NCBI GenBank assembly: GCA_009924875.1
Contig: RFQQ01000004.1
Location: 1 to 32,501, forward strand
Source of the DNA: Actinomycetota bacterium
Lineage (GTDB): Bacteria; Actinomycetota; Acidimicrobiia; Acidimicrobiales; Ilumatobacteraceae
Reading direction: 5' to 3'
DNA: 32,501 nucleotides
The notes below the pieces were generated by a model. That model had not been told where the DNA came from. It did no database searches and saw only the letters and a program-made list of their open reading frames with translations. The position numbers and the translations under genes were made by a program. Below are positions 1,735 to 25,915 of the stretch, piece by piece (the first letter of the stretch is position 1; each line of letters begins with the position of its first letter).

Positions 1735-3174
1735 ATGGCCGCACCACCGCTCCCCAACGGCCTCGTTGCCGTCGTCAAGCGGGACTGCGAGACCTGTCGG
1801 ACCGTCGCGCCCGTCCTCGCCGAACTCGCCGAAGCCACGTCGCTGACCATCTACTCACAAGACGATCCGGCCTTCCCCGACGGCCTGGAGGTCACCGACG
1901 ACCGCGACCTGTCGGTGAGTTGGCACCACGACATCGAGACCGTTCCGACCCTCATCCGAGTCGGCGCCAACGGCGAAGAGGCGCGCACCGTCGGCTGGTC
2001 GCTTCAGCAGTGGCGAGCGCTGACCGGCATCGATCGACTCGCCGAGAACCTCGATCTTCCCGAGCAGCGTCCGGGTTGCGGATCGATGAGCGTCGACCCT
2101 GATCTCGTCGACACCCTGCGTGCCCGACACTCCGGATCGCTCCTTCGATCCCGACACCTCGACCTCGCCGAGGCCGAGGACGAATTCGAATACATGCATC
2201 GCATGGGGTGGAGCGATGGACTGCCGCTCGTGCCCCCAACCGCCGAGCGAGTGCTCACCATGCTCGAAGGCACCTCGAGACCACCCGACGAGGTCATCGC
2301 GATCGTTCCCCCCGACCTCATTCAGGCCACCGTCGAGAAAATCGCGATCTCAGCCGTCATGGCCGGCTGCCTGCCCGAACACCTCCCGTGGGTCATCACC
2401 GCGGTCGAGGCCGTGTGCAACGACGAGTTCAACATGCATGGCCTCCTCGCGACGACCATGCCCGTCGGGCCCGTCATCGTGTGCAGCGGACCGGGGACGG
2501 CTCGCATCGGGATGAATCCGGGGGTCAACGCGCTCGGACAGGGCAACCGCGCGTCGCTATCGATCGGTCGGGCGCTCCAGTTACTGGTGCGCAACCTCGG
2601 CGGAGGCCGACCCGGTGGCGTCGACCGGGCCACCCACGGCAACCCCGGCAAACTGAGTTTTTGCTTCGCCGAGCACCCCGGCCCCTTCGGTTCACTCGCC
2701 GCCAGCCGGGCTGATATCGACGAGTCGACCGATGCGATCACCGTGTTCGCCGGCGAAGGCCCACGCTGCATCGTGGATCAACTCTCGCGGAGCCCGGAGA
2801 GCCTGGCAGGGACCCTCGCCGAGAATCTCCGCGCCATGCATCACCACAAGTTGGCGCTCGCTTTCGACGCCATCCTCGTGCTCGGACCCGAGCACGTTCG
2901 AGTGTTCACCGAGGGCGGATGGGACCGAACGCGGATCGTCGCCGAACTCGAGGCGCGCCTGCAGTTGCCGTATCCCGACATCGTCCGAGGAGCCGGCGGT
3001 ATCGCGGAGGGAATCCCCGACGGTCTCGGCCTCGACACCCTTGCGAAGTTCAGCCCCGGCGGGCTGATGCTCGCCCATGCCGGTGGAGGCGCGGGCCTCT
3101 TCTCCATGTTGATCGCCGGATGGGTCAACGGCGCGTCCGGCAGCCGACCCGTCACCAGAGCGGTGCAATACTGA
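1735..3174 (+). CDS. Two-domain protein: N-terminal thioredoxin-like domain (CETC) plus ~340-aa C-terminal domain of unknown function; upstream partner of the UGSC selenoprotein
   Basis: VAVVKRDCETCRTVAPVLAELAE...VPTLIRVGANGEEARTVGW is Trx-like; C-terminal GWSDGLPLVPPTAERV...PPDLIQATVEKIAISAVMAGCLPEHLPWVITAVEAVCNDEF. 4-nt gap to the next gene. Confidence 0.85.
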   Translation: MAAPPLPNGLVAVVKRDCETCRTVAPVLAELAEATSLTIYSQDDPAFPDGLEVTDDRDLSVSWHHDIETVPTLIRVGANGEEARTVGWSLQQWRALTGIDRLAENLDLPEQRPGCGSMSVDPDLVDTLRARHSGSLLRSRHLDLAEAEDEFEYMHRMGWSDGLPLVPPTAERVLTMLEGTSRPPDEVIAIVPPDLIQATVEKIAISAVMAGCLPEHLPWVITAVEAVCNDEFNMHGLLATTMPVGPVIVCSGPGTARIGMNPGVNALGQGNRASLSIGRALQLLVRNLGGGRPGGVDRATHGNPGKLSFCFAEHPGPFGSLAASRADIDESTDAITVFAGEGPRCIVDQLSRSPESLAGTLAENLRAMHHHKLALAFDAILVLGPEHVRVFTEGGWDRTRIVAELEARLQLPYPDIVRGAGGIAEGIPDGLGLDTLAKFSPGGLMLAHAGGGAGLFSMLIAGWVNGASGSRPVTRAVQY

Positions 3175-3178
3175 TCCG

Positions 3179-3703
3179 ATGACGTCGAAAGTGTTGCTCG
3201 ATCCGACGTCGGAATCGGCCCCGGCGGAACGCCAGCGGATCGCCCGACCGGCGAACCTCGACGGACTCACCGTCGGCCTCCTCGACATCTCCAAACCCCG
3301 CGGTGACGTGTTCTTGGATCGACTCTCCGAGCACCTCGAGCGTCGAGGTGCGACCGTCAGGCGCTACCGCAAGCCAACCTTCGCCAAGCCGGCACCGGTC
3401 GATCTGCGCCATGAGATCGCCGGCCAATGCCATGTGGTGATCGAGGCGCTCGCCGATTGAGGCAGTTGCACGTCGTGCAGTGTGCACGACATCAGTGATC
3501 TGGAGATCCGAGGGGTGCCCGGGGTGTTCATCGCCTCAAGCGAGTTCGTCGACGCCGCCGTCGCGCAGAGCACCTCTCTCGGCTATCCGACGATGGCTCG
3601 CGTCTTCGTGCCGCACCCGATCCAGGACCGCACCGACGACGAGATGCGCGCCCACGCTGATCACGCGTTCGACGAGATCCTGGCCGCCATCACCTCTGGC
3701 TGA
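3179..3703 (+). CDS. UGSC-motif selenoprotein (174 aa, Sec94 encoded by in-frame TGA 3458-3460)
   Basis: ORFs 3179..3460 and 3482..3703 are in the same frame; the bridge reads gcc gat TGA ggc agt tgc acg tcg tgc agt gtg cac gac = A D U G S C T S C S V H D. Both sides continue one protein (…GLLDISKPRGDVFLDRLSEHLERRGATVRRYRKPTFAKPAPVDL… / …GVPGVFIASSEFVDAAVAQSTSLGYPTMARVFVPHPIQDRTDDEM…). SECIS-like hairpin directly downstream. Confidence 0.88.
3458..3490 (+). promoter_or_regulatory. Sec codon and putative bacterial SECIS element
   Basis: TGA (3458-3460); stem GTCGTGCA (3472-3479) / TGCACGAC (3483-3490), perfect 8 bp; apical loop GTG (3480-3482) starting 20 nt after the TGA. Confidence 0.8.
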
Positions 3704-25114: not shown

Positions 25115-25915
25115 ATGACCGGCGAACCCTCCGCGCTCTTCGAGGGGTCGGGAGATCGTTGGGCCCCGACCGAGCTCTCGGCCGGCCCGTGGGATCCCGC
25201 GCACTGTCACGGGGGCCCGCCATCCGCTCTCCTCGCCCGAGCCGTTGAGCATCACGACGCCGAGGGCGTTCAGTGGCAGGTCGCCCGCCTGACCATTGAG
25301 TTGCTCCGACCGATCCGAGTCGGCCACCCGCTACGAGTCACCTCGACAACCGAGCGCTCCGGCCGCCGAATCTCCGTGGTCACCGCGTCGCTTATCGACG
25401 GCGAGAGCGAGGTGGCCGGCGTCCGCGCGCTTCGCATCAGGCGCCGCGAGGACGACCTACCGGACGGGGTTGTGCCCCCCGGCTCGATGCCCGCCTCCGT
25501 CGAGGAGTCGCGGCCCGATGTCGCGGACTTCACCGATGACCGTCCGAGCTACGTCGGGCACGCCTGCGAGTTCCGCTTCGCGAGCGGTGGATGGAATTCT
25601 CTCGGCGCGTGCGCGGTGTGGATTCATCTACGCCACCCGGTTGTCGCCGGGGAGCACCCGAGCGGACTTCAACGGGTCGCCGCGGCCGCTGACTTCGGCA
25701 ACGGGGTCTCGGCCGATGTCGACTTCAACAGCTGGCTCTACATCAACCCGGATCTGACCATCCACCTCGCTCGACCGGCTCACGGCGAATGGATTGGCCT
25801 GAGCGCGTCATCGCATCTGGGTGGCACCGGCACCGGCCTTGCCCATTCGTTGTTGCACGATGACAACGGGCCGCTCGGGTTGAGTCTCCAGAGCCTGCTC
25901 GTCGAGCCGCGCTGA
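25115..25915 (+). CDS. Acyl-CoA thioesterase-like protein (double hotdog)
   Basis: WDPAHCHGGPPSALLARAVEHH...QVARLTIELLRPIRVGHPLRV...SASSHLGGTGTGLAHSLLHDDNGPLG; 2-nt gap to upstream gene. Confidence 0.85.
   Translation: MTGEPSALFEGSGDRWAPTELSAGPWDPAHCHGGPPSALLARAVEHHDAEGVQWQVARLTIELLRPIRVGHPLRVTSTTERSGRRISVVTASLIDGESEVAGVRALRIRRREDDLPDGVVPPGSMPASVEESRPDVADFTDDRPSYVGHACEFRFASGGWNSLGACAVWIHLRHPVVAGEHPSGLQRVAAAADFGNGVSADVDFNSWLYINPDLTIHLARPAHGEWIGLSASSHLGGTGTGLAHSLLHDDNGPLGLSLQSLLVEPR

Follow-up and report, generated by a model that had tools for sequence, protein, structure and literature searches.

Does the short hairpin that follows an in-frame TGA in an Ilumatobacteraceae gene act as a bacterial SECIS element, i.e. 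as the signal for reading that codon as selenocysteine (Sec)? The gene lies on contig RFQQ01000004.1, of which a stretch of 32,501 nucleotides (the window) was analysed. A plain ORF call splits the gene in two at the UGA. Reading through from the ATG to the terminal TGA (3701-3703) gives a protein that matches the UGSC family over its full length, and the matches to both NF041046 ('UGSC family (seleno)protein'; E = 4.2e-49, 166 bits versus a cut-off of 125) and PF24696 (E = 7.5e-47, 160 bits versus a cut-off of 25) span the TGA. This family was found to be among the most abundant selenoproteins in ocean metagenomes (PMC2398784); later reviews also include it (PMC13188914, PMC9312934). In comparison with the family as described (PMC2398784; NF041046; PF24696), the window's gene has the same UGSC motif, a full-length match and relatives in which Sec forms dominate, and no difference was found.

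The UGSC family occurs in about half of 397 sampled genomes of the order, with a single internal TGA in every match among the matches listed from that sample. Its frame is kept on both sides of the TGA in hundreds of genomes, and at the TGA site itself nearly all homologues carry TGA and a minority TGC or TGT. The window's relatives are Ilumatobacteraceae and Acidimicrobiia, the closest downstream regions sharing 93-94% protein identity; a single literature search found no dedicated selenoprotein study of Acidimicrobiia. Expansions of UGSC paralogues are seen in the order and phylum (10, 5 and 7 matches in genomes G047, G412 and G786 respectively), and most of the paralogues read in the first two contain an in-frame TGA. 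GrdB-family genes, searched as a second Sec gene, included none with an in-frame TGA.

The sequence-only reading had claimed perfectly complementary arms around a GUG loop 19 nt past the TGA, and both the sequence and RNAfold bear this out. The arms GTCGTGCA and TGCACGAC (Table 1) form 8 contiguous Watson-Crick pairs, bulge-free, around a triloop that begins at nt 20 after the UGA; RNAfold forms exactly this helix, and the window holds no second site where such arms pair around GTG. The codons said to lie under the hairpin need a small correction: those for S-C-S-V-H-D and the third base of the Thr codon are within it, and the preceding Cys codon is outside. Published criteria for bacterial SECIS elements are an apical loop of 3-9 nt whose first two positions include a G, as a rule with G or U next, an upper stem of 4-16 bp, a distance from UGA to apical loop of 16-37 nt and a free energy <= -7.5 kcal/mol (PMC13188914). 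The window hairpin lies within every one of these numerical ranges (3-nt loop, 8 bp, 19 nt and, for 3472-3490 alone, -10.9 kcal/mol), and it lies within coding sequence, immediately 3' of an in-frame UGA past which the frame stays open. It resembles the consensus of the bSECISearch model in its G-then-U 3-nt loop, stem, spacing and energy, and none of the features compared sets it apart; its stem is perfect and bulge-free, and among relatives its place varies less than the 16-37 nt range allows.

Table 1. Coordinates of the features discussed, numbered from the first letter of the window.
Feature	Position	Strand	Basis
UGSC-family putative selenoprotein gene, 174 residues, predicted Sec94 (UGSCTSCSVHD)	3179..3703	+	PF24696 and NF041046 matches across TGA
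In-frame UGA, predicted to be read as selenocysteine	3458..3460	+	TGA aligned in nearly all homologues, TGC/TGT in minority; position in AlphaFold model
Predicted SECIS stem, 5' arm	3472..3479	+	Covariation, synonymous constraint
Apical GUG loop, GU the probable SelB contact	3480..3482	+	Loop conservation in Sec homologues
Predicted SECIS stem, 3' arm	3483..3490	+	Covariation, synonymous constraint
Alternative hairpin TGCAC-GTC-GTGCA, judged not functional	3467..3479	+	No covariation beyond shuffles
Upstream partner gene, thioredoxin-like N-terminus	1735..3174	+	4 nt before UGSC start; homologue upstream at 60 of 62 loci

Taken from one sequence, the hairpin is suggestive: mildly unusual, short of proof. 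The 46 nt of 3455-3500 have no excess stability over shuffles (folding z-score -0.46), and perfect stems of at least 8 bp with loops of 3-9 nt have 14 placements in the window, some overlapping. When the 13-residue peptide GSCTSCSVHDISD was recoded synonymously, the identical 8-bp hairpin arose in 88 of 20,000 recodings (0.44%), a perfect stem of 8 bp or more, of whatever sequence, in ~3.3%, and a minimum free energy as low as the native one in 15%. The generic SECIS criteria alone are likewise passed at 289 of 1662 background positions (17%), and Rfam at its gathering threshold gave no match anywhere in the window. With single-sequence statistics this unimpressive, the case for a SECIS element rests on comparative data.

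We compared the codons of 108 non-identical UGSC genes belonging to the same subfamily. All 108 have ACG, TGC, AGT, GTG and GAC as codons +4, +6, +7, +8 and +10; codon +5 is TCG or TCA with few exceptions, and codon +9 either CAC or CAT. The hairpin codons have a mean relative codon entropy of 0.15, versus 0.88 at 55 other conserved residues, and synonymous freedom resumes immediately at codons +11 to +15. Partial synonymous constraint is also seen outside the hairpin, at codons -1 (3455-3457; GAT in 101/108) and +1 (3461-3463; GGC in 98/108), and may reflect the decoding context of the UGA. A lower stem between the UGA region and codons +13 to +15, present in some folds, was rejected, these codons being without synonymous constraint.

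The stem also covaries. Of the stem cells in 37 distinct 27-mers, 92.6% are paired; compensatory cells changed on both sides number 19 against 4.1 in shuffles, and the covariation score was reached by none of 500 shuffles; sliding the partner arm destroyed the signal. One recurrent replacement, TCG-CAC to TCA-CAT, keeps its pair by two synonymous changes, with the A opposite U in all ten A-bearing stems. When the tree is built with the hairpin left out, this G-C to A-U conversion takes six changes; in a sign test on independent pairs it is one-directional but too small for significance. In another replacement, TGC...GTG to TGG...GTC, a Cys-to-Trp substitution is offset by a synonymous Val change, turning a C-G into a G-C pair. 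The comparison of synonymous substitution and covariation in relatives that the sequence-only reading had called for thus finds hairpin codons nearly frozen and a stem with compensatory changes: the hairpin is under selection as RNA. That reading had also named the lack of a preserved hairpin in Sec-containing orthologues as grounds for dismissal, and we find it kept in nearly all of them. The same hairpin is found on contig L140, from Ilumatobacter nonamiensis.

The minority of homologues with Cys at the UGA position provide a natural control. We scored each context for a stem with five or more contiguous pairs, with GU near the start of the loop and the loop at nt 18-22 past the Sec or Cys codon. 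Of 149 distinct Sec-coding contexts, 136 have such a hairpin, against 0 of 25 Cys-coding contexts and a background of 130 of 4978 codons (2.6%) of the window's own genes; Sec genes keep the structure and Cys homologues have lost it, so that it depends on the Sec codon. Seven of 24 Cys genes pass the generic SECIS criteria, with hairpins that are differently placed or have non-GU loops. Ten of the 13 Sec exceptions form one paralogous clade (SGTVRD), most members of which can form a one-mismatch hairpin with a C-GUG-C loop. Nearly all Sec homologues have GUG, GUC or GUU as their loop, unrelated stems included, and one other paralogous group has a wholly different stem, GCCCGC...GCGGGC, around CGUGAU. 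If SelB recognises the loop, unrelated stems with a common GU(G) loop at a near-equal distance are to be expected.

Some homologues depart from these patterns. Two Sec-coding paralogues (L190, L192) keep the stem with a loop of UCG or CUCGU, which has no GU and is an exception to the loop rule. One Cys-coding homologue (L062:510-560) has a perfect 10-bp hairpin in nearly the same place, with a loop, CCUACU, that has no initial G; this may be a remnant, serve another role or be due to chance. The residues across the hairpin drift in Cys-coding homologues (L255-L279, from family f27 genomes and others; TAYSVHD, STRSMRD, TSWTVKD) and are mostly fixed as TSCSVHD or TSWSVHD in Sec forms. When 16 genomes of the genus were searched with a covariance model of the element, 15 gave a single strong match, the UGSC gene; since the model was built from such sequences, this shows specificity and is not independent proof. 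The same model has a weak match in the window at 25610-25637 (+ strand, E = 7e-4), which is not preceded by an in-frame TGA and for that reason was rejected as a second element and treated as probably chance.

The Sec machinery is carried by the genus. Fifteen congeners were searched: selB and tRNA-Sec were each found over cut-off in 14, and selA and selD in nearly all. In some of these genomes selA, selB, the tRNA and the UGSC gene are clustered; on one congeneric contig (G010:C408), selA, selB, tRNA-Sec (anticodon TCA), the partner gene described below and the UGSC gene lie together. A congeneric SelB has the SelB-wing_3 domain, the SECIS-reading part of known SelBs. The window's own assembly (990 kb, 58% complete) yielded no selA, selB or selD and no tRNA-Sec over cut-off. 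We attribute this to the 42% of the genome that is missing, which presumably holds selA, selB, selC and selD.

Preservation with compensation in Sec orthologues, absence from that place in Cys homologues, frozen codons and a genus equipped with the machinery support the SECIS reading, and from these sequence comparisons we regard the hairpin as almost certainly a bacterial SECIS element, serving a gene for a UGSC-family selenoprotein. On the transcript, the 8-bp stem would present its GUG triloop downstream of the UGA, where the C-terminal winged helix of SelB, carrying GTP and Sec-tRNA-Sec, would bind it. With the UGA in the A site, SelB would then deliver Sec there, so that this codon would be decoded as Sec94 and not as a stop.

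Three other explanations were weighed against this one. Self-complementary coding could make the hairpin a by-product of the conservation of TSCSVHD, with the UGA recoded by other cues. The peptide is indeed strongly conserved in Sec forms, and codon choice occasionally gives a long stem from it, but synonymous sites are held fixed across the hairpin and free beyond it, the synonymous TCG-TCA with CAC-CAT is among the compensatory changes, and Cys forms retain parts of the peptide with the hairpin lost. These data already contradict a by-product, which we think very improbable. Equally improbable is that the active structure is the overlapping hairpin nearer the UGA, which had been put forward as a possible competitor. 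It does exist in this sequence, and 87.6% of its cells still pair among the relatives; its covariation, however, is not above shuffles, in 10 of 37 distinct sequences a G in place of C at column 12 disrupts it, and codon +3 in its 5' arm varies freely between TGC and TGT.

The last alternative takes the UGA as a true stop, or as another residue through suppression or a variant code, leaving a truncated protein or a pseudogene. The Sec genes not found in the window's own assembly would fit this, but a frame conserved on both sides of the UGA, homologues with Cys at that very position, the UGSC gene's own termination in TGA and the tRNA-Sec carried by congeners all speak against it, and its probability is negligible.

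The SECIS element so identified is a well-supported but ordinary case, as both the bacterial signal and the selenoprotein family were already known. The SECIS of E. coli fdhF is an in-frame hairpin just 3' of the UGA with a GU-bearing apical loop and a bulged U in the upper stem. The window element is like it in position and in the GU of its loop, but has a GUG triloop and no bulged U, and its possible lower stem is without synonymous constraint. The selD sequence of a relative from the same order (L196) has a putative SECIS, CUCGGC-GGU-GCCGAG, just after its TGA, with a different stem and a GGU loop that begins at nt 16. It is possible, though we consider it rather unlikely, that the actinobacterial UGSC elements form a distinct bulge-free class, fixed at a single distance from the UGA (loop at about nt 18-22) and read by a divergent SelB, in which the demands of the RNA set some of the protein sequence; base pairing would then hold the second Cys or Trp of SCSVHD/SWSVHD, as Cys homologues drift to TAY, STR and others at these residues. 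Covariation together with the natural Cys control gives comparative proof of a SECIS in an abundant, uncharacterised selenoprotein family, whose cis-element is characterised here by covariation, and the natural compensatory mutants and the alignment could sharpen SECIS search models.

The protein itself is modelled by AlphaFold with a mean pLDDT of 95 as an alpha/beta structure with a flavodoxin-like order of elements. Residue 94 follows a beta strand and sits at the N-terminal end of a helix, a usual site for a reactive residue. A structure search gave just generic alpha/beta matches (query TM ~0.5) and no specific fold relative, so no enzyme function is inferred, and the PDB holds no sequence relative of the protein. 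The gene immediately upstream matches no Pfam or NCBIfam family over cut-off and has thioredoxin-type matches at its N-terminus, all of them weak, the rest of the protein being unassigned. Its homologue lies directly upstream of the UGSC gene in 60 of the 62 loci with enough upstream DNA, and this arrangement suggests, from sequence, that the two proteins may work as a redox pair.
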